DNA of 41,311 nt from Opitutaceae bacterium. GTDB taxonomy: Bacteria; Verrucomicrobiota; Verrucomicrobiia; Opitutales; Opitutaceae. Below the pieces are notes generated by a model that did no database searches, was not told the origin of the DNA, and worked only from the letters and a program-made list of their open reading frames with translations. The translations under genes and the position numbers were made by a program. Shown in pieces: positions 15,616 through 33,931 of this stretch. The stretch spans positions 1 through 41,311 of the forward strand of contig JANQSC010000005.1 in NCBI GenBank assembly GCA_028284235.1, in the 5' to 3' direction. The number at the start of each line of letters is the position of its first letter. Position 1 is the first letter of the stretch.

Positions 15616-16206
15616 ATGAAAAGGGCGATATTCACAGCGCTGGCGCTCTGCGTTCTCCTCGTCCCGGGCTGGGCCCAGGGGGACGACCGCGAATCGCCGT
15701 TCGTGCGCAAATCGGACGCGAAGCCGCCCGCTCCGCCGGCGAAGATTCCGGCGTCGCCGCTTGACAACATAGAATTTAGAGGCGTGACGGTGATCGGAGG
15801 CGTCGCCTGGTTCAGCTTGTGGGACCCGAAAAATAAGAAAAGCTATCGAGTTAGCGAAGGTGTCGATGGCGAAGATGGATTTTCACTCGTGAGCTACGAT
15901 CCGGGAAACAAGCCGGGAGAAGAGACCATCGTTGTGCGCAATTCGGGCCTTTCGAAAAAGCTCAGTCTCAAGGACGCGGACATTATTGCTCTGGCTGCCC
16001 CGAGACCGGTCGCCCAACCCGCGACACAACAGTCGGCTCCTCGCGCCCCAGGGCCACCTCGCCCGGCTCAGCCCGCCAACCCGAGTATTCAAGCCGCCAG
16101 CGACGAAGAAGTCAGAGAACGCATGCAGCGCGTGGCCGAAGAAATACGCCGCCGCCGTTCCTTGCGCCGCGACATAATCGAGGACGGCTCCTCGGGTAGC
16201 AATTAG
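15616..16206 (+). CDS. Secreted protein with GspC/PilP-like region
   Basis: 196 residues from the ATG at 15616; an upstream in-frame ATG at 15574 would overlap gspD and bury the signal peptide, so I reject it. A clear signal peptide (MKRAIFTALALCVLLVPGWA) precedes a Pro-rich linker. A small beta-rich domain (about 50-126; FRGVTVIGGVAWFSLWDP through ETIVVRNS, KLSLKDADIIAL) resembles the homology region of GspC or PilP in pattern. The tail is Pro/Ala/Gln-rich and ends in a charged helix. It sits exactly between gspD and gspE, where the secretin-platform connector is missing from this operon, so a GspC-like connecting role is plausible. Unlike classical GspC it has no retained N-terminal anchor. 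Function is inferred. Confidence 0.65.
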   Translation: MKRAIFTALALCVLLVPGWAQGDDRESPFVRKSDAKPPAPPAKIPASPLDNIEFRGVTVIGGVAWFSLWDPKNKKSYRVSEGVDGEDGFSLVSYDPGNKPGEETIVVRNSGLSKKLSLKDADIIALAAPRPVAQPATQQSAPRAPGPPRPAQPANPSIQAASDEEVRERMQRVAEEIRRRRSLRRDIIEDGSSGSN

Positions 16207-17903
16207 TGGGCGAAATGGAGTTAGCGGAAATCGATTTTCTGGATACGCTCGAGCTGACGGAAGAACAGCGCGAGGAAATTGACGGCTTGCGGCGTTCCGA
16301 GCGCTTGGAGCGCTTGGCGGAGTGGAAGACGCGCGACTTAAGCGAAATGGTCGAGGCCTTGTCCACGCATTTGGGTATGCCGGTCGCTCCGCCCGAGCGA
16401 TTCGACTTGGACCGACTCAATTCGATCCCCTTGCGCATTTTGCACGAGTTTCACTGCGTCCCCATTCGCTCGGAGAGCGACGAGGACGAGAATGGACCGT
16501 TGGTACTCGCGACGGGATGGCCGGTCGAGGCGATCATGGACGACTGGATCTACGCTACTTGCGGCCAGCGGCCTGTATGGCAATTGGGCAATCCGGATCG
16601 TATTTCAAAATTCATTACGCAAAACCTCGGAGTCGGGGCGGAAAGTTTAGACGAGTCCTTCGACATCGACGACGATTTGGTCGGGATCGAAATCGAGGAC
16701 GAGGAGGACGAGGACGCAGCCATCATTCGATTCGTCAACGAAGTCTTCAGCCAAGCCGTGGACGACGGGGCGACCGATATCCATTTCGAGCCCATGGAGG
16801 AGGAGCTGCGGATTCGCTACCGGATCGACGGCTTGCTCGTTTCCGTCCCTGTGCCGGACAATCTTCGCAAGTTCCAGGACGCAATCGTTTCCCGGCTCAA
16901 GATCATGGCCAAGCTCAACATCTCCGAGCGACGGTTGCCGCAGGATGGGCGGATCAATTTGAAATCGGGCGACACCACTTTGGATATTCGCCTCTCTACG
17001 ATGCCGGTCATGTACGGGGAGAGCATCAGCTTGCGTTTGCTCAACAAGAAGAGCGCCCCGTTGAGCTTGCAGCAGTTGGGAATGTCGGAGCAGGACCAGG
17101 ATAAAGTGGATCGCGTGCTCGGGCTCCCGCACGGGATCATTCTCGTGACCGGGCCAACCGGCTCCGGAAAGTCGACCTCGCTCAACGCCTTCATCCGAAA
17201 GATCAACTCTGAAGATCGTCGCATCATCACCGTCGAGGACCCGATCGAGTACGAGGTGCCCGGCGTGAACCAAATCCAAGTGAAGCAGGAGATCGGTTTC
17301 GGCTTCGCGGAAGCGCTGCGCCATGTGCTGCGGCAAGACCCCAACGTAATAATGGTGGGGGAGATTCGCGACCGGGAAACTGCGGACATCGCCATTCGGG
17401 CGTCCCTGACCGGTCATTTGGTCTTCAGTACGCTCCACACGAACGACGCCCCGGGAGCCATTACGCGACTGACTGACATGGGGATCGAGCCCTTTTTGAT
17501 CGCGTCGGGTGTGGAGCTCGTAATCGCCCAGCGATTGCTGCGCCGGCTCTGCCCGGATTGCTATACCTTGCGGCCGATTGAACGCGCTAGCGTGCTCGAT
17601 TCGCTCACGGTTCTGGACATGCCGGAATCGGCGATTGGAGAGGTGACCGAACTTCCGGTCGCGGGTGGCTGCGAGCGGTGTCGAAATCTCGGATACAAGG
17701 GACGAATCGGAATCTATGAAATCCTGCGCGTGACAGAGGCCTTGCACGATCCAATCGTCAACCGGGAAGCGGCGCCTCTGATGAGGGAAATCGGCCGCAC
17801 GGGAGGAATGGTGACTCTCGGCGAATCGGGCTGGAACCTGGCCTGCAAGCGCCTCACGACCTTGGAGGAAGTCGTACGCACGATTTCCGTGAAAGAAGGA
17901 TGA
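16206..17903 (+). CDS. gspE: Type II secretion ATPase GspE
   Basis: Cytoplasmic ATPase that powers pseudopilus assembly, 565 residues. The N-terminal domain (1-150) is GspE N1E/N2E-like, followed by an acidic linker (IEIEDEEDEDA) and the catalytic core. Visible motifs are DGATDIHFEP, Walker A GPTGSGKS with K322, the Asp box (VEDPIEYEVPGVNQIQ), Walker B (VIMVGEIRD) and the His box (HLVFSTLHTNDA). A tetracysteine zinc domain (CPDC ... CERC) is followed by GYKGRIGIYEI. The GTG start overlaps the previous stop (TAGTG); an ATG at 16215 is an alternative giving three fewer residues. Confidence 0.96.
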   Translation: MGEMELAEIDFLDTLELTEEQREEIDGLRRSERLERLAEWKTRDLSEMVEALSTHLGMPVAPPERFDLDRLNSIPLRILHEFHCVPIRSESDEDENGPLVLATGWPVEAIMDDWIYATCGQRPVWQLGNPDRISKFITQNLGVGAESLDESFDIDDDLVGIEIEDEEDEDAAIIRFVNEVFSQAVDDGATDIHFEPMEEELRIRYRIDGLLVSVPVPDNLRKFQDAIVSRLKIMAKLNISERRLPQDGRINLKSGDTTLDIRLSTMPVMYGESISLRLLNKKSAPLSLQQLGMSEQDQDKVDRVLGLPHGIILVTGPTGSGKSTSLNAFIRKINSEDRRIITVEDPIEYEVPGVNQIQVKQEIGFGFAEALRHVLRQDPNVIMVGEIRDRETADIAIRASLTGHLVFSTLHTNDAPGAITRLTDMGIEPFLIASGVELVIAQRLLRRLCPDCYTLRPIERASVLDSLTVLDMPESAIGEVTELPVAGGCERCRNLGYKGRIGIYEILRVTEALHDPIVNREAAPLMREIGRTGGMVTLGESGWNLACKRLTTLEEVVRTISVKEG

Positions 17904-17910
17904 TTTGAAT

Positions 17911-18008
17911 GAAGAAGGAAGAATTAAGAATGAAGAAGTGGATACGGGCGATTGAAGGTCGTTTGATTCATTCAAATCCAACTTCTTAATTCTTAATTCT
18001 TCCTTCTT
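17911..18008. repeat. Long inverted repeat between gspE and gspF
   Basis: Two 28-29-base arms (17911-17939 and 17981-18008) are near-perfect reverse complements. One arm is all purine except for three T bases. They are separated by about 41 bases. A second pair, TTTGAATGAA (17904-17913) and TTCATTCAAA (17967-17976), is interleaved with the first rather than nested. The result is a hairpin able to form in the middle of the operon mRNA. AT content is far above that of the flanking genes, pointing to an inserted repeat. Confidence 0.75.
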
Positions 18009-18018
18009 AACTTAAACA

Positions 18019-19275
18019 ATGCCGAGTTTCACCTACAACGCTAAAGACGCGCAAGGACAGTCCGTCAGTGGTTCGGTCGAAGCGGGGAGCCGTCGAGCCG
18101 CCTTGCAAAAGCTCTCGGCCCGCAAGCTCCGGCCGTTTTCGGTAAAGGTAAGCGGCGCTTCGGCCGGTGGGGTGAAAAAAGGGGAGAGCCTTTCGGCTCT
18201 TTTAGGATTCGCAGGAAGGAAACGGGAAGCAAAACCGCCCAATAGGAGCGTCGCCTTGCCGTTTCTATCGGGGATTCGGGAATTGCTCGTAAGCGGTATC
18301 CAATCTGCGGATGCATTGAGAATGATGAGCGCCCGTTTGACGGACCCGAGACAAAAACAGCTGGCGACGACTTTGTGGGACGAGTTGAAACAGGGGCGGT
18401 CTTTGTCGGAAAGCTTCCGCAAGCAGCCTAAGGTTTTTCGCGAAAGCGTGGTCAGCCTGGTGGAAGCGGGCGAGGCGACCGGCAGCTTGACCAATGTGTT
18501 GACGCGACTGGTGGAAAGCATGGAGGAGCAAAAGGAGATCCGCGGCAAACTGGTTGCGGCCCTTTCGTATCCGTGTTTTCTGACCACGGTCGCAATCGGG
18601 CTCGTCCTCTTGTTCTTGTTTGTTCTTCTGCCCCGCATCGAAGGGCTCCTCGCCTCGCTGGGCGGAAACCTGCCGGCCTCTACGAAAATTCTCATTGGCG
18701 TTTCCAACGGCATGCTGAGCTATGGATGGATCGCGGCGATCGGGATCGCCTTGGCGGTTGCGGCCACGGTTTCCTGGAGAAACACGTCGAAGGGGCGTCA
18801 CGCGTTCGATCGCATGTTGTTGAGGCTGCCGGGTTTTGGGCGGGTCATTCGGGACATGCAGGTACTGCAGTTTACCCAGACGCTCTCGCTTCTGCTCGAA
18901 AACGGGATCATCATGGTGCAGGCCCTGGCCATGGCGGAACGGTCGCTCGCCAATGTGGCGATGCGGGAGTCGTTCGCCGAGGCGCGGGTGAAAGTGACCG
19001 AGGGCGTGGCATTGTCCACGGCGTTCAAGTCGACGGGCTACTTCGACAACATGGCTCTGGATGTTTTTACCGTCGGCGAGAACACGGGAAACGTAGTTCC
19101 CGGATTGAGACAAATGTCGCAGCAGTACACAGAGATGATCGACAAGTTCGTGAAGACCTTTCTCGGGATCGTGTCGACGGGAGTTCTCCTAGGCGTATTC
19201 GCCCTCGTGGGCATGATCGCCTTCGGCATTATTTCCGCCGTGTTCCAGCTGAGCAGTTCGCTGTCCGCGGGCTGA
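18019..19275 (+). CDS. gspF: Type II secretion membrane platform protein GspF
   Basis: Polytopic inner-membrane protein at the base of the pseudopilus, 418 residues. It starts with the GspF/PilC-typical MPSFTYNAKDAQGQSVSG. Two GspF domains follow, with LFLSGIRELL-like and FREAL-like motifs recognisable as SGIRELLVSGIQSADALRMM and TQTLSLLLENGIIMVQALAM. There are three membrane segments (about 185-215, 235-258 and 385-412), and VGENTGNVV marks the second domain. It is last in the operon and separated from gspE by the inverted repeat, which could lower its expression. A run of eight G bases follows the stop codon. Confidence 0.94.
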   Translation: MPSFTYNAKDAQGQSVSGSVEAGSRRAALQKLSARKLRPFSVKVSGASAGGVKKGESLSALLGFAGRKREAKPPNRSVALPFLSGIRELLVSGIQSADALRMMSARLTDPRQKQLATTLWDELKQGRSLSESFRKQPKVFRESVVSLVEAGEATGSLTNVLTRLVESMEEQKEIRGKLVAALSYPCFLTTVAIGLVLLFLFVLLPRIEGLLASLGGNLPASTKILIGVSNGMLSYGWIAAIGIALAVAATVSWRNTSKGRHAFDRMLLRLPGFGRVIRDMQVLQFTQTLSLLLENGIIMVQALAMAERSLANVAMRESFAEARVKVTEGVALSTAFKSTGYFDNMALDVFTVGENTGNVVPGLRQMSQQYTEMIDKFVKTFLGIVSTGVLLGVFALVGMIAFGIISAVFQLSSSLSAG

Positions 19276-19399
19276 TGGGGGGGGTCCGGTTTCAATTGGC
19301 GCTGCTCAGTGAAGGCGAATGACGTTAGAATTGGCTTGTCGTTTACCGGTGGGCGCGGTGGCTTCGTTGCGTTGGTAAATCGTAAGGCCCGGAAGGCGA

Positions 19400-20653
19400 A
19401 TGTCCCCAAATTTTAGAATAGCGGTTAGATTCTTGCTCGCGAAGAAGCGTTCGATGCTGATGAGCCTTGCGGGCATCGTGTTCGGAGTGGGTTTCTTTAT
19501 TTCCACGCAGGCTCAATTGAGCGGCTACCAGAACTTGTTTATCGACACGATTCTGGGGACGGACGGAGCCATTCGTATCGAGGACCGTATTCAAGATGTG
19601 AATGTTTTTCTGGCCGCTCCGACTACGGACGGAGGGGACACGGGGTTCTTCACGACCGACAAGGAAAATCGTCGATTCGTAGAAGGCATCGAGCATCCTG
19701 AGACGGTCATCGAGTCGATCATGGAGCTCAGCAACGTCGAGGCGGCGTCTCCAGTTATCAAAGGCAACATTCAATTGCAGAGTCCGCTGCGTGAAGACAA
19801 CGGGCAGGTCTACGGCATTTTCGTCGACCCGCACATCGCGGTGTCCGCGTTGGAGGACCAGATCAGATCCGGCTCCATCGCGGCGTTCCGAGCCGCCCCG
19901 ATGGGCATTATCATGGGGCATAAAATGGCGACTCGCCTGGATGTTGCGGTGGGCGACTCGGTCGTGGTTCGCGCCGTTGACCAGCAACGTCGCTTTTCGA
20001 TCGCGGCGATTTTCGAGACGGGCGTCTCCGAGATCGACAAGTCCCGTGTGTTCATGCACATGAGCGCGACGCGTTCGCTTTTGAAGAAGCCGCACGGGGT
20101 CAGTTTTGTGCAAGTAAGCGTTTACGACCGCGATCGCGCGATCGCGGATGCGTTGGTGATCGAGAATGTGGCCGAGCACTTCGCCGCGGCGTGGCAGGAG
20201 CGGGAGAAGTCTTGGATGCAACTTTTCAAAACGCTGAAGATTTCGGCGGCGATCACCGTATCGACGATTATTATCGTGTCGGGCCTGGGCATGTTCAGCA
20301 CGCTTTTCATGATCGTCATGGATAAGACGCGCGAGATCGCCATTCTGAGATCGATGGGGTACACGCGTAACGATATTTCGAATATATTTCTGTGGCAGGG
20401 TTTCATCGTCCTGGTCTGCGGAACGATTCTCGGTTGCGGGATGGGCGCCTTGATCACTTTCGGCATCGAGAGCTTGCCGATGCCGTTGTCCGGGATTTTC
20501 GCGACGGAGCATTTTGTGGTGACTTGGTCGCACTGGCACTACGTGCAGGCGGTGTTCGCGGCGGTGGTGATTGTCATGGTCGCCAGTGTCGCCCCCGCTC
20601 GGCGAGCCAGCAAACTCGTGCCGGGCGACGTGATACGGGGGACGGCCTCGTGA
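19400..20653 (+). CDS. lolC: ABC transporter permease, LolC/LolE (FtsX) family
   Basis: Inner-membrane permease of 417 residues, probably part of the complex that extracts outer-membrane lipoproteins from the inner membrane. There is a first transmembrane helix near residues 17-37 (MLMSLAGIVFGVGFFIS), a large periplasmic domain, and three C-terminal helices (about 275-305, 325-350 and 375-400) with the FtsX-type coupling motif MDKTREIAILRSMGYTRNDI. It overlaps the ATPase gene at GTGA. Only one permease gene is present, so a homodimer (LolF-like) is possible, and a MacB-like exporter cannot be excluded. The 124-base gap before it holds no clear terminator for the gsp operon. Confidence 0.82.
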   Translation: MSPNFRIAVRFLLAKKRSMLMSLAGIVFGVGFFISTQAQLSGYQNLFIDTILGTDGAIRIEDRIQDVNVFLAAPTTDGGDTGFFTTDKENRRFVEGIEHPETVIESIMELSNVEAASPVIKGNIQLQSPLREDNGQVYGIFVDPHIAVSALEDQIRSGSIAAFRAAPMGIIMGHKMATRLDVAVGDSVVVRAVDQQRRFSIAAIFETGVSEIDKSRVFMHMSATRSLLKKPHGVSFVQVSVYDRDRAIADALVIENVAEHFAAAWQEREKSWMQLFKTLKISAAITVSTIIIVSGLGMFSTLFMIVMDKTREIAILRSMGYTRNDISNIFLWQGFIVLVCGTILGCGMGALITFGIESLPMPLSGIFATEHFVVTWSHWHYVQAVFAAVVIVMVASVAPARRASKLVPGDVIRGTAS

Positions 20654-21354
20654 GCGCGACGGAGCAGTCGGACGAGCGCGAGATCGCGCTGGAGTGTCGC
20701 GATCTGCACAAGCACTTGGGCGAGGGCGCCATGCGTGTTCACGTGCTGCGCGGCGTAAACCTCAAACTCTATCGAGGCGAGGTTTCCGCCATCGTCGGCC
20801 CGTCGGGTTGCGGGAAGAGCACGCTTCTCTATCTGCTCGGATTGCTGGATCGCCAGGATTCGGGCTCGATTATCGTCGGCGGGACGGAAGCGCCCCCGGG
20901 CGAGGATGGATCGCTCACGCGATTGCGTGGCGAGAACATCGGATTTGTGTTTCAATTCCACTTCCTGTTGCCCGAGTTCAGCGCGGCGGAGAACGTGATA
21001 CTTCCGATGCGGAAACTGGGTCGGCTGAGCGAATCGGAAATGCAAGAACGGGCCAAGGCTCTGCTGGAAGAGGTCGGGCTGGGCGGTAAGACGCATCGCC
21101 TCCCGTCTCAGCTTTCTGGAGGCGAGCAGCAACGCGTGGCGATCGCTCGATCGCTGGCCAATATGCCCGGGGTTTTGCTCGCGGACGAGCCCACTGGCAA
21201 CTTGGACGTCAAAAACTCGCTAATGGTTTTCGAGTCGCTAACGCGGCTTGCAAAAGAGAAGGGGCAGGCTGTTCTTATCGTTACCCACAATCCGGATCTG
21301 GCAGAGAAGTGCGACCGGATACTCCGCATGCAGGACGGTCAGTTCATCGACTGA
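20650..21354 (+). CDS. lolD: ABC transporter ATP-binding protein LolD
   Basis: ATPase partner of the upstream permease, 234 residues from the GTG at 20650, which overlaps the permease stop. The longer open frame upstream lies inside the permease gene and is not coding. Walker A is GPSGCGKST, the Q-loop region is GFVFQFHFLLPEFSAAENV, which is characteristic of LolD, the signature is LSGGEQQR, Walker B is VLLADEPTGNLD and the H-loop is VTHNPDLA. Together with the permease it should drive lipoprotein release to LolA; no lolA or lolB is in the window. Confidence 0.9.
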   Translation: MSATEQSDEREIALECRDLHKHLGEGAMRVHVLRGVNLKLYRGEVSAIVGPSGCGKSTLLYLLGLLDRQDSGSIIVGGTEAPPGEDGSLTRLRGENIGFVFQFHFLLPEFSAAENVILPMRKLGRLSESEMQERAKALLEEVGLGGKTHRLPSQLSGGEQQRVAIARSLANMPGVLLADEPTGNLDVKNSLMVFESLTRLAKEKGQAVLIVTHNPDLAEKCDRILRMQDGQFID

Positions 21355-21770: not shown

Positions 21771-22427
21771 ATGTCAGAAGTGTTCCCAAAGTGGTCTAAC
21801 GCGTTGCCGCTAAAAATAATCGTTTTTATTTTTATCCTAGCGGCGGCGATCGTATCCGGAGTCACCTACTATGCGACTCCAAGCTACACGCGAGTGGGCT
21901 ATCAACCCGAGCAGCCGGTTCCCTACGACCACAGTTTTCATGTGGGCGAACTGGGATTGGATTGTCGCTACTGCCACAGCGACGTCGAGAAGTCGGGGCA
22001 CGCGAATATTCCGGCAGCGAGCACGTGTATGTCGTGCCACAGCATGATCAAGACCGACAGCGAGGCGCTCGAGCCCATCCGCGCCAGCTACGCGTCGGGC
22101 GACCCGGTGAAGTGGGTGCGGGTGCATGAGACTCCTGACTACGTCTACTTCAATCACGCCGTCCACGTGAACCGCGGCGTTTCCTGCGTCGAGTGCCACG
22201 GGAAGGTGAACGAGATGGAAGTCGTCTCCCACGATCAGTCGCTCAGCATGGGCTGGTGTTTGGAATGCCACCGCAATCCGGAGGAACATATTCGTCCTGT
22301 CGACCTGGTGACCGACCTCGATTGGGTCCACCCGGGCGGCGAGAAAGGCCAGATCGAAGACGGACTTAAGTTTGTCGAAGAGTGGAAAATCAATCCGCCG
22401 CAAAGTTGCTCAGGCTGCCACCGATGA
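21771..22427 (+). CDS. actA: Alternative complex III pentahaem cytochrome c ActA
   Basis: Membrane-anchored multihaem cytochrome c of the quinol-oxidising alternative complex III, 218 residues. One transmembrane anchor (about 15-34) is followed by a periplasmic domain with exactly five CxxCH haem sites (C65-H69, C86-H90, C139-H143, C163-H167, C213-H217), as expected for ActA. Further histidines (HSFH, FNHAVH, SHDQS) can serve as distal ligands. It is first in the act operon, and its stop overlaps the actB start (ATGA). It carries electrons from ActB to the monohaem cytochrome or next acceptor. Confidence 0.95.
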   Translation: MSEVFPKWSNALPLKIIVFIFILAAAIVSGVTYYATPSYTRVGYQPEQPVPYDHSFHVGELGLDCRYCHSDVEKSGHANIPAASTCMSCHSMIKTDSEALEPIRASYASGDPVKWVRVHETPDYVYFNHAVHVNRGVSCVECHGKVNEMEVVSHDQSLSMGWCLECHRNPEEHIRPVDLVTDLDWVHPGGEKGQIEDGLKFVEEWKINPPQSCSGCHR

Positions 22428-25400
22428 AACCGATAAACTCAACACCCTCCACTCAGTCGGCGCAAAGCGGGCCGCGTTACTGGCGCAGCCTCGACGAACT
22501 GTCACAGTCGCCTGAATTCCTAGAGCAAGTCCAACGCGAATTCGGACCGGAAGCTTCCGAGATGAACGAAGTGGACCGTCGCCACTTCTTCAAGATTATG
22601 GCGGCCTCGTTCGCTCTAGGAGGAATCGGCTTCACCGGCTGCCGTCGCCCCGAGTCGAAGATCATGCCGCACTCGAAGGCGCCGGAGTACCAAGTCCCCG
22701 GCCAGCCACTTTATTACGCGACCCAGTTTTCGCTGCGCGGCGAGAGCATTCCGCTCCTCGTCGAGACGCACGCCGGACGACCAACCAAGGTCGAAGGCAA
22801 TAGCGACTTCGCCCTCTACAACGGCGGCACGGGCCTGAAGGCCCAAGGATCGATCCTCGAGTTGTACGATCCCGACCGCTCGACACGCTACACACGCGAC
22901 GGGGCGAATCTCTCCAAAGAAGAAGCCTTGGATGTTCTGGACGGTCTCAAGGGCGACTTCGGCGGCTCGAAAGGGAAGGGCGTTGCCGTGCTGACCGAAA
23001 AGTCGTCGTCCCCCACGCGACTGCGTTTAAAGAAGGAGTTCTTGAAGCAGTTTCCCAACGCGCGTTGGGCGGAGTATGAGCCGGTAAAAACCGGTAACGG
23101 TAAAGCGGCGGCTGAAATTGTAGCTGGCGAGGATTTGGAGCCGAAGTACGACCTTTCCGGAGCGGAGCGCATTTTGAGCGTCGGCGGCGACTTTCTCGGT
23201 GACAACCCGGGAGGGCTCAGCTTGACCAAGCAGTTTTCCGACGGGCGACGCGTTCGTTCGTCTCACGACACCATGAACCGGCTCTACGTAGCCGAGAGCG
23301 GCTTCAGCCTGACCGGCGCCATGGCAGACCACCGCAAGCGCATCGCCACCAGCCGCATGACTGCGCTCTTGGCGGCAGCGGCGCTGGAAATCGAGCTCGG
23401 CGTGGAAGGGGAAGCCCTTCAGCCGATCTTCGACAAGCTTGCTTCCGGCCTCGACGCGGACACGAAAGCGTGGATCGCGGCTGCGATGGCGGACATCGCC
23501 AACTTTAAAGGCAAGAGCCTGGTTTACGCCGGTCCGCAGTTGGGCAAAGAGGCGCAGGGAATCGCTTTGCTGATCAACGAAAAGCTCAGCAACCTTGGCA
23601 AAACCGTTTCTCTGGTCGAGGTAGATGCGGACGCGTCGAACTCGCTGGACGAACTCGCCGACGCGATCGACGCGGGCGAGATTCAAACCTTGATCGTTTC
23701 CGGCGGAAATCCGGTTTACAACGCGCCGGCGAATATCGATTTTGGCGCCAAGATCGAAAAAGTGGATACGGTCCTGCGCCTGGGCTACTACGACGACGAA
23801 ACGTCCGAAAAGTCCACCTACCATTTCGTGCAGGCCCACTACTTGGAGTCTTGGGGCGACGGTCGGGCTTACAACGGCTCGGTTCTCGCCCAGCAGCCGA
23901 TGATCCTGCCCCTGTTCGACGGCATTTCGGAGATCGAAATGCTTGGTCGTCTTCTGGGAGCGGAAAATGCGGACGGTCACAGTCTCGTCTACGAGACTTA
24001 CCAGAAGATCGGCGAAAAAGGGAAACGGGCCTTCGACAAGTTTCTTCACAACGGCTTTGCCAGCGATACCGAATACAAGTCGAGTCGCTCGCTCATCTCC
24101 GGTATGAAACTCGCTGAGGCGCTGGAAGGAACAACCCTTCCGGCGGCTCCCACGGGAAAAGACAATTTGGAAGTCCTATTCACGGCCGACCCGTGCATCG
24201 ACGATGGCCGCTTCAACAACAACGGCTGGCTGCAAGAGTGTCCGGACCCGATGACCAAGATGACTTGGGACAACGCCATCTACGTCAGCCCGGCGCTGGC
24301 CAAGGATCTCGATATCATCGCTCCTGATTCCGTCCTACAGATCACGCGCAAGAATCCGAACCGCGTCAGGGACGGCCGATCCTACTCGCCCGTTGCCAAG
24401 ATAAACGTCGGAGGGCGCGAAGTGACCGGAGGCGTTCAAATCCTCCCGGGGCTTGACAGTTACTCGATCATTCTCCCGCTCGGATATGGGCGTTCCCGCA
24501 CGGGACGCGTAGGTGAGAATTCTGGATACAACGCGTACTCTGTTCGTTCTTCGGATGGAGCGGTGTTCTCTTCCGGCGCTACGCTGGAACTGACTGGCGA
24601 CGTTATCCAACTTGCGAATACGCAAGAGCACTGGTCGATGGAAGGACGCGCGATTATTCGCGAGTCCAATTTCGACGACTATGCGGCGGATCCGAAATGG
24701 GTCGACAAGATGGGAATGGAGAGCCATTCGCCGCCGGTTCTCGGAGAAGACAAAGGCATGTCGGTGCAAGAGCGTTCGATGTCGACTCCGCGCGGCGGCT
24801 CCGCGTACGAGCACCCCAACTACACGGGCGAGCACCAGTGGGGAATGTCGATCGACTTGAATATTTGCTCCGGCTGCAACGCGTGCGTGGTCGCCTGTCA
24901 GAGCGAAAACAACATTCCGATCGTCGGGCGCGACCAAGTGCGTCGCGGACGCGAAATGCACTGGATTCGCTTGGACCGCTACTATTCGTCCAACGACGTC
25001 AAGCGCGACGCGAACGGCGACCCGATCCTGAACGAGTACGGTGAAACGGAGCTCGATTTGGCCGCCGTTCCAGAAGACCCGCAAGTTTCCATTCAGCCGA
25101 TCGCGTGTATGCACTGCGAGACCGCTCCGTGTGAGACGGTTTGCCCGGTCAACGCCACGGTCCACGACGAGGATGGCCTCAACACGATGGCCTACAACCG
25201 CTGTATCGGCACGCGCTACTGCGCCAACAACTGCCCATACAAAGTGCGCCGTTTCAACTTCCTCGACTACCAGCAGCGTCCTTTGGACCGCCTCTACGAA
25301 GGTCCGCTCGCCCCCAAGGGCATGCCGGAGCTCACGCAAATGGCCCAGAACCCCGACGTGTCGATTCGGATGCGCGGCGTGATGGAAAAGTGCACCTACT

Positions 25401-25809
25401 GCGTGCAGCGTATCCAGCAGGCCAAGATTGCTCAGAAGGTGAAGGCTCAAGACAGCAACGACACTCGCATCCCCGACGGGACGATCAAGGTGGCTTGCCA
25501 GCAGGTTTGCTCGTCGGACGCGATCGTATTTGGCGACGTCAGCGACCCGGAAAGCGAAGTCTCCAAGCTGCAGGCGAACGAGCGCAACTATTCCGTTCTC
25601 GGCTACACCAACACGCGGCCGCGCACTACTTACCTGGCGAAACTCCGCAATCCGAATCCGGAAATGCCCGACTACCATGACATGCCATTCTCGAAAGGGG
25701 AGTACAAGGCGGGGAAGCCGCATCAAAAAAGCGGCTACGATTCACACGATGACCATGGTCACGATGCAGCTCACTCTGATGCCCATTCTGAAAAAGGAGG
25801 ATCGCACTA

Positions 25810-25810
<1 letters not shown>
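22424..25810 (+). CDS. actB: Alternative complex III iron-sulfur/molybdopterin-like subunit ActB
   Basis: Fused subunit of 1128 residues. I start at 22424, overlapping actA by ATGA; the longer frame from 22382 lies inside act[21 protein letters not shown] is typical of ActB. A twin-arginine signal ([11 protein letters not shown]52-R53) leads into a lipobox-like GFTGC (C73). The first about 780 residues resemble a molybdopterin oxidoreductase, but ActB is known to lack the cofactor. The C-terminal part is a ferredoxin-type domain with four cysteine groups ([46 protein letters not shown]), consistent with three 4Fe-4S and one 3Fe-4S clusters. The last 29 residues hold seven histidines. Confidence 0.95.
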
Positions 25811-27222
<1,412 letters not shown>

Positions 27223-27245: not shown

Positions 27246-27800
27246 ATGGCTAAACAACACGGACTTATCGCTAAATTCGAAACCCCTGCCGACATCATGC
27301 ACGCGGCGGAGAAGGTGAGAGATGCAGGCTTTAAAAAATGGGACGTCATTTCGCCGTTCCCGATCCACGGAATGGACCCGGCAATGGGGATCAAACGCTC
27401 GCTCGTCGGTCGATTCACTATTTGCGGCGGCGCGCTGGGTCTCACCACCGGAATGCTGATGATCTGGTTCACCGGTGGTTCCGACCTGAGCGTGCCCTTG
27501 ATGGATGGATACAAGCTGATCGTAGGCGGCAAGCCGTTCTTCAGCCCGCAGTTCGCGTTCCCGGTGTCCTACGAACTCACGATTCTCTTTTCGGCCTTCG
27601 CGTCGATCGGCGGCATGTTCATTCTGAACAAGCTCCCCACGCATTATCATCCAGTTCTCAAGTACAAGGACGTGGCGGCCAGCTCGGACGACAAGTTCTT
27701 CCTGTACATCGAAAACGAAGACCCCCAGTTCGACGACGAGAAGACGCGCGTGTTTCTCAACGAGCTGCAACCCGTCGAAATAGGAGAGTTGGAGGAATAG
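27246..27800 (+). CDS. actD: Alternative complex III subunit ActD
   Basis: 184 residues, DUF3341-type. The cytoplasmic N-terminus (IAKFETPADIMHAAEKVRDAGFKKWDVISPFPIHGMD) is the family signature. Two transmembrane helices follow (about 60-82 and 105-130), then FILNKLPTHYHPVLKY and a cytoplasmic C-terminal domain. It has no cofactor motif. In known complexes ActD is a structural membrane subunit packed against ActC and ActF. It lies 23 bases after actC and 4 before actE. Confidence 0.93.
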   Translation: MAKQHGLIAKFETPADIMHAAEKVRDAGFKKWDVISPFPIHGMDPAMGIKRSLVGRFTICGGALGLTTGMLMIWFTGGSDLSVPLMDGYKLIVGGKPFFSPQFAFPVSYELTILFSAFASIGGMFILNKLPTHYHPVLKYKDVAASSDDKFFLYIENEDPQFDDEKTRVFLNELQPVEIGELEE

Positions 27801-27804
27801 TTCG

Positions 27805-28413
27805 ATGCGTTACGTATATCTAATCTTTATTGTCGGCGTTGTCGGGACTCTCGCGATTCTCGGGCCGCGCGGCTCCAAAACGACTCGGCCGCCGCTGGAA
27901 GTGTTCCCGGACATGGATCGCATGCCGAAGTACCACCCCCAGGCGGAAAGCGCCTTTTTCGCGGACGGGCGCACCGACCGGCTCCCCGTGGACGGCACGG
28001 TCGCTCGCGGCACGTATTACGAGGATGAATACCTCGCCACTGGCAAAAACGGCGAAGCGTTCGGGAAAGGCTTTCCGATCGACGTCACCAATGACGCGAT
28101 GGCCCGCGGCGAAGACCGCTACAATATCTACTGCGCGATTTGCCACGGAGCGGCGGGCGACGGCGACAGCATGACCAAGAAGTACGGCATGCTCACCGTG
28201 GCGAGTTTGACCGACCAGCGGCTGGTGGACTACACCGACGGCCAGCTTTACGATGTCGTTAAGAACGGCAAAGGCTTGATGCTTGGATACGCGGATCGGC
28301 TCTCCGTCGAGGACCGCTGGAACGTAGTGCTTTACCTTCGCGCCTTGCAGCGCGCCGCCAATGGAACTGTGGAAGATCTAACGCCCGCTAAACGAGAGGA
28401 GCTCGGACTATGA
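27805..28413 (+). CDS. actE: Alternative complex III monohaem cytochrome c ActE
   Basis: 202 residues. An N-terminal hydrophobic segment (about 3-20) lacks a lipobox cysteine, so it is probably a membrane anchor rather than a lipoprotein signal. One haem c site is CAICHGAAGDG (C110-H114), and M159 (KGLMLGYADRLS) is the likely axial ligand. GGAGGAAT upstream gives a good ribosome-binding site. Its stop overlaps the actF start (ATGA). ActE receives electrons from ActA and passes them to a soluble or oxidase-bound acceptor. Confidence 0.93.
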   Translation: MRYVYLIFIVGVVGTLAILGPRGSKTTRPPLEVFPDMDRMPKYHPQAESAFFADGRTDRLPVDGTVARGTYYEDEYLATGKNGEAFGKGFPIDVTNDAMARGEDRYNIYCAICHGAAGDGDSMTKKYGMLTVASLTDQRLVDYTDGQLYDVVKNGKGLMLGYADRLSVEDRWNVVLYLRALQRAANGTVEDLTPAKREELGL

Positions 28414-29630
28414 GCGCTGACTACACGCCCAATCCTACCAAGTGGCTATTGATGGGGATCGCGGGAATCGCGATTTCGTTCATCGGCTTTTTCGTCGCCC
28501 CGCAAATCGCGGCCTGGTCTTACTTGATCGGTCTGATCTTTGCCACGTCCATCGCCATTGGGATGCTCTTCCTGGTGATGATCCACCATATTTTCGACGC
28601 CCAGTGGTCGGTGATCGTGCGTCGTCAAGCGGAGCACTACATTTCGGCCCTGCCATACATGGGCATTCTGTTCATTCCCTTGTTCGGTCTCACTTACCTG
28701 AAGGACCAAGGCCTGATCTGGCTGTGGATGAACGACGCCGCTTCGCTGCATGGGCACGGAACCGTCGGTTCGGACGTGCTCTACCAAAAGAAAACCTGGT
28801 GGCTCTCGGAGCCGTTTTTCTGGGGTCGCGTGGTGTTCTGTTTCGCGATCTGGAGCTACTTCGCCTGGGCCTTCCGCCGAAACTCGTTTTCGCAAGACGA
28901 GGACGGGGCGGCCAAGCACACGTTTTCGAGCCGCAAACACGCTGCGGGCGGGCTTATCCTGGTCGCTCTCACCTGGACCGCCGCCGGTTTCGACTGGATC
29001 ATGGGTCTGGAGTACCACTGGTTCTCGACGATGTTCGGCGTCTGGATTTTCGCCAGCGCTATGCGGGCGGCCCTGGCGGTGATGCTGCTTACCTGCGCGT
29101 TCCTCGTCGCCAAGGGGCCGCTTAAGGGAATTTTCAATACAAAGCACTTGCACGACGTGGCTACCTTGGCGTTCGCCTTCACGGTGTTCTGGGCCTACAT
29201 CACCTTCTCGCAGTATTTCTTGATCTGGAATGCAAATATCCCGGAAGAGACCTTCTGGTTCAACGATCGCGAGGAGGGCATCTGGTGGCCGATCTCGATG
29301 ATCCTCATTTTCGGTTACTTCCTGTTTCCTTTCCTCTACATGCTGCAGTTCCCGCTGAAGACGAACTACACGTCCATGACCTTCATGGCGATCTGGTTGT
29401 TGTCCATGAATGTTCTCGACGTCTTCTTCAACGTGCTACCGTCGCTGAAAGACCATGATGGTCATGTTTTCCAGATGTTCTCCAGTCCTTTGAACGTGCT
29501 CTGGTACATTGGCGGGATCTCCGGAGCGTTGGGAATACTGCTCTGGTCGTACTGGTCCAGCTACCAGAAAACGAAGATCATTCCGATCCGCGATCCGCGT
29601 ATCCAGGAATGCCTGAACCACAATCATTAA
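28410..29630 (+). CDS. actF: Alternative complex III membrane subunit ActF
   Basis: Second large membrane subunit, a divergent NrfD-like protein with about ten transmembrane helices, 406 residues. Helpful landmarks are FLVMIHHIFDAQWSVIVRRQAEH, YFAWAFRRNSFSQDEDG, WTAAGFDWIMGLEYHWFSTMFGVW and FSQYFLIWNANIPEETFWF, all typical of the family. AGGAG precedes the start. In solved complexes ActF mirrors ActC; whether it moves protons is debated. It is followed after 10 bases by a small membrane protein gene. Confidence 0.94.
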   Translation: MSADYTPNPTKWLLMGIAGIAISFIGFFVAPQIAAWSYLIGLIFATSIAIGMLFLVMIHHIFDAQWSVIVRRQAEHYISALPYMGILFIPLFGLTYLKDQGLIWLWMNDAASLHGHGTVGSDVLYQKKTWWLSEPFFWGRVVFCFAIWSYFAWAFRRNSFSQDEDGAAKHTFSSRKHAAGGLILVALTWTAAGFDWIMGLEYHWFSTMFGVWIFASAMRAALAVMLLTCAFLVAKGPLKGIFNTKHLHDVATLAFAFTVFWAYITFSQYFLIWNANIPEETFWFNDREEGIWWPISMILIFGYFLFPFLYMLQFPLKTNYTSMTFMAIWLLSMNVLDVFFNVLPSLKDHDGHVFQMFSSPLNVLWYIGGISGALGILLWSYWSSYQKTKIIPIRDPRIQECLNHNH

Positions 29631-29640
29631 GAGACGAACG

Positions 29641-29919
29641 ATGAGTGAAACCGCGCAAACGCCGACACGAAGCTCCTTCCCGATGGTAGTCGCTATCCTG
29701 GGAGCGTTCCTGATTTTCTATTTCCTAGTCAACTGGACGTTCGTAAATTCCGATCCCGCTCCGGAGGCTCCGGCGATCGAACGCCCCTCCTTGGCGGAAC
29801 ACGAAGCGGCGGGAGCGGCGAAGCTCTCGGAGTTCGCGGTCGTGGACGCGGCGTCGGGCAAGGTCCGCTTGCCGATCAGCGAGGCGAAAGAGCTCGTCGT
29901 TTCCGAAAACGCCAAGTAA
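29641..29919 (+). CDS. Small single-span membrane protein in the act operon
   Basis: 92 residues, not firmly recognised. A short polar N-terminus precedes one transmembrane helix (about 14-32, MVVAILGAFLIFYFLVNW). After that come a Pro/Ala-rich linker (PAPEAPAIERPS) and a small C-terminal domain ending KVRLPISEAKELVVSENAK. There are no cysteines or haem sites. It sits between actF and the CcoN-like gene, 10 bases after the former. It could be an accessory subunit comparable to the small ActG or the CcoQ/CcoH class, but nothing in the sequence decides this. Confidence 0.75.
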   Translation: MSETAQTPTRSSFPMVVAILGAFLIFYFLVNWTFVNSDPAPEAPAIERPSLAEHEAAGAAKLSEFAVVDAASGKVRLPISEAKELVVSENAK

Positions 29920-29957: not shown

Positions 29958-31442
29958 ATGAACGTGATTGGCAACCTCTGGTCTTCGCTTTTTCCCGATC
30001 TTTCCGGCGATTTGAAGAATCGTGAATCGGAGCGGGCGATTGACGCGTCGATTCGTTTCCCGCTGCTGTCTCTCATCAAGTCGTCGATCGTCTGGCTGAT
30101 CCTCTCGATCGTCTTCGGCCTGATTGCTTCCATCAAACTGCACACGCCGTCGTTTTTCGCGGAGTATTCTCTTTTTACCTACGGCAAGGTTGAGCCGATT
30201 TTCTGGAACACGCTCGTTTACGGTTGGCTTTTCAACGCGGGATTCGCTTGCGCGATCTTTCTGCTGAGCCGCCTCGGAGGAGCCACGGCGGGAATGGGGC
30301 TGTTTCTGACAATCTCCATCGTCGTTTGGAACACGGCGGTCATGGCCGGCGTGGTCGGAATCATGGCGGGCGAGCAACTGCCTTACGAATGGCTGGAGTT
30401 CCCTGCCTTCGTCGGTCCGGTGCTGTTTACCGCGTTCGTGGGAATCGGGTTTTGGTGTCTTTTGACGTTTCGCAATCGCGTCCATCGCTCGAGTTTCGCG
30501 TCCCAGTGGTGGATCATCGCGGCCCTGTTTTCGTTTGCCTGGATTTACACAGCGGCCCAAGTCGCTCTGGTTTGCATGCCGGCACAAGGCGCCATGCAGA
30601 CGCTGATCAATAGCTGGTACGCGGAGAACGTGTTTGGCCTGTTCGTCGCTCCATTGACGTTCGCGACGTTGCTCTACCTCCTGCCGAAGACGCTGGGAGC
30701 CCCGATCGTGGGGCACAAGTACAACACTTTTATCGCGTTCTGGACGTGGATTCTCTTCTCCAGCTTCGCGGGGGCGAGCGAGCTGGTGTTCGGTCCGGTA
30801 CCGGTTTGGGTTTCGTCGGTAGGCGTCATCGCCATGTTCGGACTGCTGCTTCCGGCAACTGCGTTGTCGGTCCAGTTTCTTTCCAGCCTCATTCGCCGTT
30901 TCAGCGCGATTTGGGACGCGGCGACGCCTCGTTTTCTGTTGGGCGGAAGCATCGCTTTCGTCTTCCTCATGTACTTCAAGGTATTCGGAGCGCTGCGCGA
31001 CTCGGCGAGCGTCACCCAGTTCTCGCTCTACGATTCCGGTGTGAACTGCCTGGCGCTGTTCGGTTTCGCGGGGATGGTGTTTTCCGGAGCGACCTATTTC
31101 ATGCTGCCTCGCTTGCTCAACAAGGAACTCCCGTCCCCGACTTTAGTCGATCTCCATTTCTGGTCCCAGTTGATGGGCGTAATTCTCGTATCCATTGGAT
31201 TGATATCCGGCGGCGAGCAGATGGGAGCGCTCATGAATGGCAGTACTGCGGATGCAATCGCTGTGGTCGCGGCTATGAGAAGCAGCTACTTTATGACAAC
31301 GATCGGGCTCGTATTCCTGCTCATGGGAGCGGTTTTCAGCGCGACGACTTATTTCTGGCTGATGGTGTCGAACCGTACGGACGCGGAGCAGTCGGCAGAT
31401 TTGATCAAGGAGGCTCCCGAGTTGGAGTATACCGCCTCATGA
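29958..31442 (+). CDS. CcoN-like membrane protein lacking all haem and copper ligands
   Basis: 494 residues with about 12 transmembrane helices, aligning by eye over most of its length with subunit I of cbb3 oxidase (CcoN). Landmarks: SWYAENVFGLFV for the CuB helix, LLPKTLGAPI, FSSFAGASELVFGPVP, AATPRFLLGG, GATYFMLPRLL, VDLHFWSQ. Every ligand histidine I expect is replaced: F82 (low-spin haem), E223 (CuB), S274 and E275 (the HH pair), V362 and C364 (the HxH motif); the cross-linked tyrosine position is Ser268. The whole protein has only four histidines (62, 176, 253, 400), none in the ligand helices' active positions, so it cannot be a haem-copper oxidase. The frame is intact and coupled by ATGA to a CcoO-like gene. 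Role probably structural or in electron or proton coupling. Confidence 0.85.
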   Translation: MNVIGNLWSSLFPDLSGDLKNRESERAIDASIRFPLLSLIKSSIVWLILSIVFGLIASIKLHTPSFFAEYSLFTYGKVEPIFWNTLVYGWLFNAGFACAIFLLSRLGGATAGMGLFLTISIVVWNTAVMAGVVGIMAGEQLPYEWLEFPAFVGPVLFTAFVGIGFWCLLTFRNRVHRSSFASQWWIIAALFSFAWIYTAAQVALVCMPAQGAMQTLINSWYAENVFGLFVAPLTFATLLYLLPKTLGAPIVGHKYNTFIAFWTWILFSSFAGASELVFGPVPVWVSSVGVIAMFGLLLPATALSVQFLSSLIRRFSAIWDAATPRFLLGGSIAFVFLMYFKVFGALRDSASVTQFSLYDSGVNCLALFGFAGMVFSGATYFMLPRLLNKELPSPTLVDLHFWSQLMGVILVSIGLISGGEQMGALMNGSTADAIAVVAAMRSSYFMTTIGLVFLLMGAVFSATTYFWLMVSNRTDAEQSADLIKEAPELEYTAS

Positions 31443-32101
31443 ATCGCGGACCGTTCCTATTTCTTGGCTTGTTTTTGATATTGGCGTCTTCGTGGACGTT
31501 TCTATTGAAACAGTCTAACGAGGAGTTTGGCAAGCTGACCGCCCTCGTCGACGAAGAGCAAGGCGGACTGCTCCCGCGCGGCGTCAAAGGCCCGGCCGCT
31601 CATGGCAAAGAGCTGTATCAAGAGTTGGGATGCATCGCTTGCCACACGCAGCAAGTGCGGGTGGCTGCAGGGTCCGACATCGAACGCGGCTGGGGTGAAC
31701 GGCAATCCGTCGCCCGCGACTACATCGACCAAGGACGCGTGCTGATCGGCAACATGCGTATTGGGCCGGACTTGACGAACGTGGGGCAACGCCGTTCGGA
31801 CGAGGACTGGCACCTGCTGCATTTCTATAATCCGCAAATCACGTCCGAGGGTTCGAATATGCCGTCGTATCCATTTTTGTTCGAGACGCGCGAGATTGTC
31901 GGTGAACCGAGCGCCAATGCGTTGTCGTTGCCAGAGGAATACGCTGTTGAAGCGGGCTATGAAGTGGTGCCGTTGCGGGAAGCGGAGTCTCTCGCCGCGT
32001 ACATGACGAGCTTGAAGGTGGACTACGATTTGGACGAGGCTCCGAAATCGAACGAAGTTATGGCCGAGGAATTGGCCGTTGCGTTGGAGAATGCGCAATA
32101 A
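31439..32101 (+). CDS. CcoO-like monohaem cytochrome c
   Basis: 220 residues, starting at an ATG that overlaps the CcoN-like stop; the longer frame upstream lies within that gene. An N-terminal membrane anchor (about 5-23) is followed by a periplasmic cytochrome c domain. The haem site is CIACHTQQVR (C65-H69), with axial M141 in SNMPSYPFLF. IGPDLTNVGQRRSDEDWHLLHFYNP closely follows the pattern of CcoO/FixO, the cbb3 subunit II. The haem site is intact, unlike the catalytic positions in its presumed partner. It is coupled by TAATG to the next cytochrome gene. Confidence 0.88.
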   Translation: MNRGPFLFLGLFLILASSWTFLLKQSNEEFGKLTALVDEEQGGLLPRGVKGPAAHGKELYQELGCIACHTQQVRVAAGSDIERGWGERQSVARDYIDQGRVLIGNMRIGPDLTNVGQRRSDEDWHLLHFYNPQITSEGSNMPSYPFLFETREIVGEPSANALSLPEEYAVEAGYEVVPLREAESLAAYMTSLKVDYDLDEAPKSNEVMAEELAVALENAQ

Positions 32102-32769
32102 TGAGTAACGAATTCCAAGATCGAAATTTGCCCGGCATCGACGAGGGCCAGGCCAGCGACGAGAGCATTCTCAAAACGCATGCTCGACTGTGCCGCGAAC
32201 CGATCGGCGCTTCTCCTGTGTTTTTCTTCACTTGTCTAGCGCTGCTGACGGTGACGACCTTCAGTTGGTTCTACGTGCGTCGCTACATGGCGGAATACGA
32301 TTCCCAGACGTATTTGCACGAACGGACGGAGATTGCCTTGTATCAGGATTGGATGGATCGTCCTCGCGGTCCGATCGAGTACGACTATTTTGCCATCGGC
32401 CAGAATCTCTACGCAAGTATGCAGTGTGTTGGCTGCCACATGGCCGAAGGTGAAGGGAAACCGGGCGAATTCCCACCACTGACCGCTTCCGAATACGTCA
32501 TTCATGAAGATCCGGCTTTGCCCACCAAGATCTTGCTCTCGGGCCTAGTAGGCCCGATAACCGTGAGTGGAAACGAGTACAACGGCAATATGGCCGCGTA
32601 TGGTCCCGCGCTCAAAGATCACGAGATCGCGGGTCTGGTGACCTTCATTCGCCAAAGCTGGGGCAACGAAGCCAGTGGAGTTACCGCGGAGGACGTGGCG
32701 GCGGTACGAGCGGACATCGGCGACCGAGCTCAGTGGACCGCCGACGAGCTCCAGAGCTACTTCGAGTAA
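32101..32769 (+). CDS. Membrane-anchored monohaem cytochrome c (CcoP-position)
   Basis: 222 residues. A polar N-terminus (1-37) comes before one transmembrane helix (about 39-59, PVFFFTCLALLTVTTFSWFY), then a periplasmic cytochrome c domain with CVGCHMAEGEG (C109-H113) and likely axial M164 (NGNMAAYGP). PTKILLSGLVGPITV is typical of oxidase-associated cytochromes c. It occupies the place of CcoP but carries one haem instead of two and is not a clear CcoP homologue. It is the last gene of the act operon; the stop is followed by the palindromic element B. Confidence 0.85.
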   Translation: MSNEFQDRNLPGIDEGQASDESILKTHARLCREPIGASPVFFFTCLALLTVTTFSWFYVRRYMAEYDSQTYLHERTEIALYQDWMDRPRGPIEYDYFAIGQNLYASMQCVGCHMAEGEGKPGEFPPLTASEYVIHEDPALPTKILLSGLVGPITVSGNEYNGNMAAYGPALKDHEIAGLVTFIRQSWGNEASGVTAEDVAAVRADIGDRAQWTADELQSYFE

Positions 32770-33016: not shown

Positions 33017-33097
33017 AATCGTGTTGAGGGTCTCGGTCTGCGCAGTTGGGGAACCGATTTCTTGATTTGCGCGGGTTCTTCGGGTAGCACTTTTTCA

Positions 33098-33931
33098 ATG
33101 GAAGCCGTGAATATTACGTTCGAGTCTTTGTGCGATACGCCCCCGGACGAGGCCTTGCCTCCCTTGGATCGAGCGGAGATTGGCCAAGATGCGGTCGTGA
33201 ACGAGGAAACGCGGTTTTGGAGAGAGAACGGATACTTGATTCTCCCTCGTTTCTTTTCGGACGACTTGCTCGACGCGTACGCGCGTTCCTGTGTCGAAGC
33301 GGGAGTGACTCCCCATGGCTGGCGCGAGCCTTGCCCCTTTACCCATCAACCGGCGATGCGGGATCTCGCCTGTCATCGTTCTTTGATGGACAAGCTGGAG
33401 ATGCTAATCGGGACCCCGATGGGGTTGAACTTGGCCCTGACGGGTTGGCGATCGTCGTCTCGAACGTGGCACCAGGACGACTACTTGAATCCCCCGTATA
33501 TAAATTGCCACTACGCAGCGGTTTGGATCGCTCTCGAAGACACTCATCCAGATAGTGGCCTTTTTGAATACGTTCCGGGCTCGCACAAATGGCCGTTGAT
33601 GCGCGGTTCGAAGGTGCGCGAGCATTTGCCGGAAGACAAACTGGATGGCAATTGGCCTCTGGAGGCGGAGAAACTGGTGACCGGGATTTTCGACCGGAAA
33701 ATCGAAGAGACGGGATTGCCGATCGAAGCGTTCCATGCTCGCAAAGGCGACGTTTTGATTTGGCACGGTCGGCTCGCCCATCGCGGGTCGATCCCGAACG
33801 ACCCGGAGCGGGAACGCCGGTCGTTGATTACCCACTACTCGTCGATTTTGAAGCGAAAGGATCTGCCACGCCACAAGCGACATGGCAATCAGGGCTGGTA
33901 CTTCCTCCTTCCTGATTCGGTGGAAGCGTAG
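33098..33931 (+). CDS. Phytanoyl-CoA dioxygenase (PhyH) family protein
   Basis: Fe(II)/2-oxoglutarate-dependent oxygenase of unknown substrate, 277 residues. I use the ATG at 33098; an in-frame TTG at 33062 would add 12 residues that overlap nothing and have no support. FWRENGYLILPRFF is the typical N-terminal strand. The iron site is WHQDDYLNP (H125, D127) with the distal H228 in LAHRGSIPN, and R240/R241 (ERERRSLITHY) is the probable 2-oxoglutarate-binding arginine. EYVPGSHKWP is another family hallmark. It is convergent with proC, 15 bases away, and not part of any operon in the window. Substrate cannot be predicted. Confidence 0.86.
   Translation: MEAVNITFESLCDTPPDEALPPLDRAEIGQDAVVNEETRFWRENGYLILPRFFSDDLLDAYARSCVEAGVTPHGWREPCPFTHQPAMRDLACHRSLMDKLEMLIGTPMGLNLALTGWRSSSRTWHQDDYLNPPYINCHYAAVWIALEDTHPDSGLFEYVPGSHKWPLMRGSKVREHLPEDKLDGNWPLEAEKLVTGIFDRKIEETGLPIEAFHARKGDVLIWHGRLAHRGSIPNDPERERRSLITHYSSILKRKDLPRHKRHGNQGWYFLLPDSVEA

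Follow-up and report, generated by a model that had tools for sequence, protein, structure and literature searches.

Haem-copper oxidases form a textbook superfamily defined by its metal ligands, and some of them are partners of alternative complex III (ACIII). In Rhodothermus marinus, ActE is described as handing electrons directly to the oxidase within an ACIII-caa3 supercomplex (excerpts of PMC5928083). In Flavobacterium johnsoniae, ActE was reported to be dispensable for electron transfer to the oxidase (excerpts of PMC8552683), so the routes from ACIII to the oxidase appear to vary. For Opitutaceae and methanotrophs, genes of C-type oxidases next to ACIII have also been described before (excerpt of PMC8498564, which cites Refojo 2010).

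The window analysed here, a 41,311-nucleotide stretch of an Opitutaceae bacterium genome (contig JANQSC010000005.1), carries an act operon of this general kind. Its CcoN-like gene, called pseudo-CcoN below, codes for a protein in which the predicted haem and copper ligands are all replaced. We describe this gene and its relatives, and consider what a CcoN without ligands may be doing next to ACIII.

Pseudo-CcoN and its operon

The operon has the order actABCDEF, a small open reading frame, pseudo-CcoN, CcoO and CcoP, all on the forward strand, and the six act genes follow each other in order in the window. ActA (21771..22427) is a multihaem cytochrome c with five CxxCH motifs. ActB (22382..25810, 1142 aa) is an iron-sulfur/molybdopterin-oxidoreductase-like protein according to profile matches, ActC (25810..27222) belongs to the NrfD family (Pfam) and ActD (27246..27800) matches PF11821 with E 9.9e-58. 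ActE (27805..28413) is a mono-haem cytochrome c, as indicated by a profile match and one CxxCH. ActF (28410..29630) has no Pfam or NCBIfam match and is named from its position in the act cluster only. The next gene (29641..29919) codes for a small protein of 92 aa with one likely membrane helix by sequence reading and no family match; weak relatives of this protein occur at the equivalent place in many operons. Genes for type II secretion-like T2SSE and T2SSF and for an ABC/FtsX transporter pair are located upstream of actA (16206-21354), and a PhyH-family dioxygenase gene (33062-33931) lies directly after CcoP.

Pseudo-CcoN (29958..31442) is an open frame of 494 aa with no internal stop. The initial annotation described the protein as following CcoN along most of its length, and this was borne out by the searches: the Pfam COX1 profile (PF00115) covers residues 42-452 (E 2.7e-23), and phmmer against the PDB returned five distinct sequences, every one from cbb3-type entries (9g6b, 8smr, 3mk7, 6xkw and 9g83). 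The NCBIfam ccoN profile TIGR00780 matches with E 1.7e-24, but at 86.6 bits its cut-off of 583.15 is not reached. Superposition on a cbb3 oxidase had also been proposed. The AlphaFold2 model built from 11 sequences is poor (pLDDT 48.8, pTM 0.48) and was used solely for helix order and a Foldseek search; it has 12 long helices, and the seven PDB hits with E <= 0.001 are all chains of cbb3 entries (TM 0.54-0.59).

The same genome also encodes L066, a true CcoN fused to CcoO in which every ligand is in place, and the ligand columns of pseudo-CcoN were read by alignment to it. We take His63 and His350 of L066 to be the ligands of the low-spin haem, His210 and His260/261 those of CuB, His348 that of haem b3, and Tyr254 the cross-link tyrosine. 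A cross-linked tyrosine is a feature of C-type oxidases. In pseudo-CcoN the His63 column is occupied by F82, His210 by E223, Tyr254 by S268, His260/261 by S274/E275, His348 by V362 and His350 by C364. None of the six histidine ligands of haem b, haem b3 and CuB is left (0/6), the cross-link tyrosine is replaced by the serine, and three phmmer alignments give the same ligand columns. These are the replacements that had been listed initially, and the count of four histidines in the whole protein (62, 176, 253 and 400) is likewise correct. The alignments confirm pseudo-CcoN as a CcoN homologue in which all six predicted haem and copper histidines and the predicted cross-link tyrosine are replaced, and the missing ligands make O2 reduction by this protein unlikely. 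Sequencing error is an unlikely cause, since full-length stripped orthologues with 48-75% identity are found in nine other genomes of the window's genus and in two more of its family (G018 and G022); a tenth genome of the genus (G009) contains CcoN fragments only.

The stop codon of pseudo-CcoN overlaps the start codon of CcoO (ATGA, 31439-31442), in agreement with the translational coupling proposed initially, and the CcoO stop overlaps the CcoP start in turn. The CcoO-like protein (31439..32101) is a mono-haem cytochrome c of the FixO family (PF02433, E 3.2e-21) with CIACH as its CxxCH. The CcoP-like cytochrome c (32101..32769) has a single CxxCH (CVGCH), and its score with TIGR00782, 23.7 bits, does not reach the cut-off of 179.95. 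CcoP of a typical cbb3 oxidase is a di-haem protein.

Intact and stripped CcoN in the class

Thirty-eight genomes, the window's included, were searched as relatives, and 34 of them had a match. ACIII-linked CcoN comes after the act genes in 37 fetched regions, some of these CcoN having all ligands and others few or none. When 387 genomes were sampled across the phylum, 92 matched at E <= 1e-30, and three of these 92 lay outside the window's class. Among the matches listed for 384 genomes of the class, ActD is matched in 329 and P0001 (E <= 1e-15, true CcoN included) in 308.

Across this class of Verrucomicrobiota, CcoN linked to ACIII occurs in two states, intact and stripped. All six histidines are present in 34 of the 110 genomes with ACIII-linked CcoN, four or five in none, and the remaining 76 are stripped, with three histidines in three genomes, two in five, one in 39 and zero in 29. 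The cross-link tyrosine is kept in every intact copy (34/34). As to whether stripped CcoN would lie near act genes in relatives, ActE was found in 76/76 stripped and 33/34 intact loci. Forty more CcoN of the class, typed from the gene alone (flanks not fetched), comprise 14 with six histidines, one with five and 25 with 0-3, and family f21, treated below, contributes ten extra stripped copies. The total of 160 typed CcoN is therefore made up of 48 with 6/6 histidines, one with 5/6 and 111 stripped (0-3). These counts take in G340 as intact (its contig ends before actF) and the f21 copy L230 as stripped (cut by a contig end, five of seven positions visible); they leave out G009 and G033 (fragments), L045 (unlinked paralogue of G023), G121 (not fetched), and L181 and L182, CcoN from other classes.

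Three single genes deserve mention. The sole 5/6 member, L191 of G461, has one CuB histidine replaced by arginine and the rest intact; it may have only just begun to lose its ligands, or the change may be an error of the MAG. L045 (G023:C1) is a second CcoN-like gene with all ligands, in an open frame of 999 aa with 46 histidines, and no act genes were found beside it. A weak COX1-family match at G007:C799:3128-4375 contains one in-frame TAA.

Family f22 (loci L134, L139, L196, L198, L222, L190 and L201) represents partly stripped forms. The low-spin haem histidine pair alone is kept in five of its seven typed members (G048, G198, G641, G511 and G529), one low-spin histidine is kept in G564 and neither in G526. 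Read from present-day sequences, this series suggests that the oxygen-reducing site may go first during loss. The f22 pair, together with single ligands kept in some other stripped lineages, is also what could be expected if stripped CcoN still bound a redox cofactor through other ligands, be it a haem held elsewhere or a quinone, and within the window's clade H62 is conserved in 11/12 and C98 in 12/12 members. However, H62 is the sole histidine position conserved at 11/12 or more in the clade, which leaves no conserved histidine pair, and we regard a retained cofactor as very unlikely.

The two acidic residues at former CuB positions, E223 and E275, were initially thought to suit a proton path. 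The E275 part of this proposal was rejected: the position is E, S, N, D, K or A among the 12 clade members and acidic in only 7/111 stripped CcoN. A role of E223 may still be considered. Glutamate is found there in 10/12 clade members, including all ten genomes typed in the window's genus, and an acid in 23/111 stripped CcoN from four lineages (ten from the window's genus, all 11 f21 copies, G053 and G651). ACIII itself is proposed to pump protons via ActC and ActF (PMC5928083, in excerpt), so one could imagine an ion-translocating subunit whose emptied haem pocket serves as a proton path, via E223 or other residues, and adds to the ActC/ActF half-channels. Yet E223 is lost in G018, G022 and G652, and 88/111 stripped CcoN have no acid at this position but S, Q, H, N, G, A, R or F. 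We consider such a subunit quite improbable, and the case for a path through E223 and E275 together weak.

Selection on the gene was evaluated by Nei-Gojobori dN/dS. For pseudo-CcoN the ratio is 0.06-0.11 in four pairs from the window's genus with dS under 1 and 0.05 in two pairs with saturated dS, the window's own pair among them; these values are higher than those of ActC and ActF and close to that of CcoO. Among six further stripped pairs, five have ratios of 0.10-0.29 and one is saturated; intact pairs have 0.01-0.08 (four of six). By these ratios pseudo-CcoN is under purifying selection, which together with the intact frame upholds the initial view of a maintained gene.

The constraint is nevertheless weaker than in working enzymes. 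When pairs are matched for ActC identity (65-75%), their CcoN are 59% identical in intact pairs (221), 34% in stripped pairs (356) and 36% in mixed pairs (682), the pairs not being independent. Of 171 columns conserved in intact CcoN, 120 are gone from stripped CcoN and 51 are kept. Judging from the identity drop and the kept columns, constraint on CcoN was relaxed after loss yet has not disappeared. The drop and the missing columns could point to a decaying relic, i.e., a gene that rides in the act operon without a function of its own after the active oxidase was lost. We find this unlikely, as dN/dS is well below 1 both in the window's genus and in five of the six other stripped pairs, no internal stops occur among the listed matches to pseudo-CcoN, the 51 columns are retained, and the haem motifs of CcoO and CcoP persist in every stripped operon where the gene was found. 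CxxCH is present in CcoO and ActE of all stripped loci (76/76 each) and in CcoP of 74/74; no CcoP gene was found in the other two, G024 and G198.

Conflicting trees and the number of losses

The tree of concatenated ActB and ActC (97 rows, 30 intact and 67 stripped) requires at least 13 state changes, or 15 losses if loss is one-way. When branches with support below 80, 90, 95 or 99 are collapsed, at least 15, 14, 13 or 9 losses are needed, respectively, and the AU test rejects one common clade of the stripped rows (p 0.00055, 41 of the 97 rows). Single-gene trees with 41 rows each give 12 changes for ActF, 12 for ActE, 11 for ActC and nine for CcoO. The window's clade (its genus with G018 and G022) corresponds to one loss in the ActB+ActC tree and has the intact G023 as its sister.

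The CcoN tree tells a different story. With 37 rows, 23/23 stripped sequences fall in one group (support 99/91). With 41 rows there are three changes, the stripped sequences being placed as 18 of the window's order, four from elsewhere in the class, and G204 within an intact family. CcoN data reject the grouping of the window's clade with intact G023 (p 0.00095), of G011 with intact g33 (p 0.0006) and of family f1 as a single clade (p 0.0065); these three mixed groups are the ones favoured by taxonomy or by ActB+ActC. Stripped CcoN occupy long branches in this tree. Since long stripped branches attract each other, and since the flanking ActF and CcoO agree with ActB+ActC, we take 9-15 ligand losses to be likelier, with three as the floor. 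The alternative is that CcoN alone was replaced by a stripped copy.

Partner oxidases and the possible role of pseudo-CcoN

Genes of an A-type oxidase (COX1, COX2 and COX3) are present in the window's genome on a different contig, C12. An additional COX1-family gene is located at G000:C41:45691-46893 (215 bits). At least one further COX1-family match exists in each of the 76 stripped genomes, while 3/34 intact genomes (G034, G178 and the 80% complete G029) show no other COX1-family gene than the ACIII-linked CcoN among the matches listed. An A-type oxidase is present in 73/76 stripped versus 28/34 intact genomes (p 0.024, relatedness ignored). A-type COX1 genes, picked by high PF00115 score, lie within 6 kb of 22/76 stripped versus 1/34 intact loci; the 22 cases belong to four family codes and cannot be counted as independent. 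In G077, pseudo-CcoN is followed by CcoO, CcoP, COX1, COX3, a COX4-like gene scoring slightly below Pfam's cut-off, two unnamed frames and COX2. CxxCH is absent from COX2 in G077, in G296 and in the genome of the window, so an outside cytochrome c should be needed by these oxidases.

We think it rather likely that pseudo-CcoN is a haem-b-free membrane subunit of an ACIII-associated complex which does not reduce O2 and acts as a scaffold for two c-type cytochromes, a role suggested by gene order and conservation. The protein would be made and located beside ACIII, where it could anchor the CcoO and CcoP cytochromes. ACIII oxidises menaquinol, with electrons travelling via iron-sulfur clusters and haems c; the presumed path would lead from menaquinol through ActB, ActA and ActE to the c haems of CcoO and CcoP, bypassing the haem b of CcoN. 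From there the electrons may go to a soluble cytochrome c or to CuA of an A-type oxidase. For the window's operon an A-type acceptor is inferred from relatives, given that its own A-type genes are on C12 and a PhyH gene comes after CcoP. The arrangement probably descends from a functional ACIII-cbb3 supercomplex. After a different oxidase had taken over the electrons, the active site of CcoN could have degenerated, with the scaffold being retained.

Other observations speak against the scaffold. Stripped CcoN evolves much faster than intact CcoN, which also fits slow decay, and the CcoN tree disagrees with the many-loss picture given by the neighbouring genes. Taken as a whole, the initial interpretation of pseudo-CcoN is partly supported.

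A scaffold of this kind would suggest a concrete electron path from ACIII to A-type oxidases whose subunit II has no haem c. Repeated stripping with retention of the protein would constitute a natural experiment, separating the oxidase parts that serve supercomplex assembly from those that serve catalysis.

Methanotrophs and comparison with known systems

pmoB (PF04744) was found in 12/12 f21 genomes searched, with fragments only in G443. As these genomes also have 2.2-2.5 Mb and belong to the window's class, we infer that f21 represents verrucomicrobial methanotrophs. Eleven of the 12 have one pseudo-CcoN match (E <= 1e-5), G044 being without. All 11 copies (L225-L235, one of them cut by a contig end) are stripped and have one of the six histidines left; CcoO and CcoP accompany 10/11, and ActF 10/11. 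The PF00115 search covered six f21 genomes, five of them with the stripped gene, and the motifs of their other COX1-family genes are those we take to be A-type, ba3-like or NOR-like. No intact CcoN was seen among the COX1-family genes of these five genomes, nor by NCBIfam in eight f21 genomes, where the best CcoN score was 30.5 bits versus 583.

The ACIII-adjacent cluster of strain Kam1 was called a cbb3 oxidase and tied to growth at low oxygen and to a high oxygen affinity (PMC6688271), and a review gives the cluster of methanotrophs under the same name (PMC8498564). In strain IT6, cbb3 and aa3 genes adjoin ACIII (PMC11102522). The methanotroph cbb3 is also counted among the terminal oxidases (PMC8498564, PMC10205796), all as stated in excerpts of these papers. 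Judging from the f21 sequences, this "cbb3 oxidase" is apparently the stripped form. "Candidatus M. pantelleriae" is described, in the excerpt of PMC8170126, as having aa3- and ba3-type oxidases only, a set that would agree with G044, in which no match to the gene was found. That a gene next to ACIII is annotated as a "cbb3 oxidase" is no proof of microaerobic respiration, and the gene of the pMMO-bearing family should not encode an oxidase; if so, the high oxygen affinity of methanotrophs must come from their other oxidases.

Overall, we lean slightly towards the broad proposition that ACIII of Verrucomicrobiota has repeatedly turned its cbb3 partner into a redox-inert scaffold for two c cytochromes, with three origins at the minimum and 9-15 if the neighbouring genes are trusted, and that the methanotroph cbb3 is likewise a pseudo-oxidase. 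In the open PMC literature, represented partly by excerpts, we found neither a ligand-free CcoN or other haem-copper oxidase subunit I beside ACIII nor a report of recurrent ligand loss in ACIII-linked CcoN; an earlier report is possible in subscription journals, which lay outside this search. A haem-copper-oxidase pseudoenzyme as a probable ACIII partner seems to be new here.

CcoN of cbb3 oxidases (3mk7, 8smr, 9g6b) is homologous to pseudo-CcoN over nearly its full length and is likewise followed by CcoO- and CcoP-like genes, but pseudo-CcoN is without the six histidines and the tyrosine, scores 86.6 rather than 583 bits with TIGR00780, and has a CcoP with one haem motif. Intact ACIII-linked CcoN of other Verrucomicrobiota, such as L042/G023, L046/G014 and L105/G302, share the place after actABCDEF, and these three have 33-35% identity with pseudo-CcoN; unlike it, they have the complete set of ligands and may be functional oxidases.

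ACIII-caa3 of R. marinus resembles the locus in having oxidase genes downstream of act and in electron transfer without a soluble carrier (PMC5928083), and in F. johnsoniae the aa3 partner receives its electrons from ACIII alone (PMC8552683). In both cases the partner is a working A-type enzyme, whereas a CcoNOP unit is not described in the excerpts of these reports. The gene neighbourhood is shared by the methanotroph "cbb3 oxidase" beside ACIII (PMC6688271, PMC8498564, PMC11102522), and the f21 gene appears to be of the same kind as pseudo-CcoN. In the excerpts of these papers it stands as a cbb3-type oxidase, while the f21 copies are, all 11 of them, stripped.
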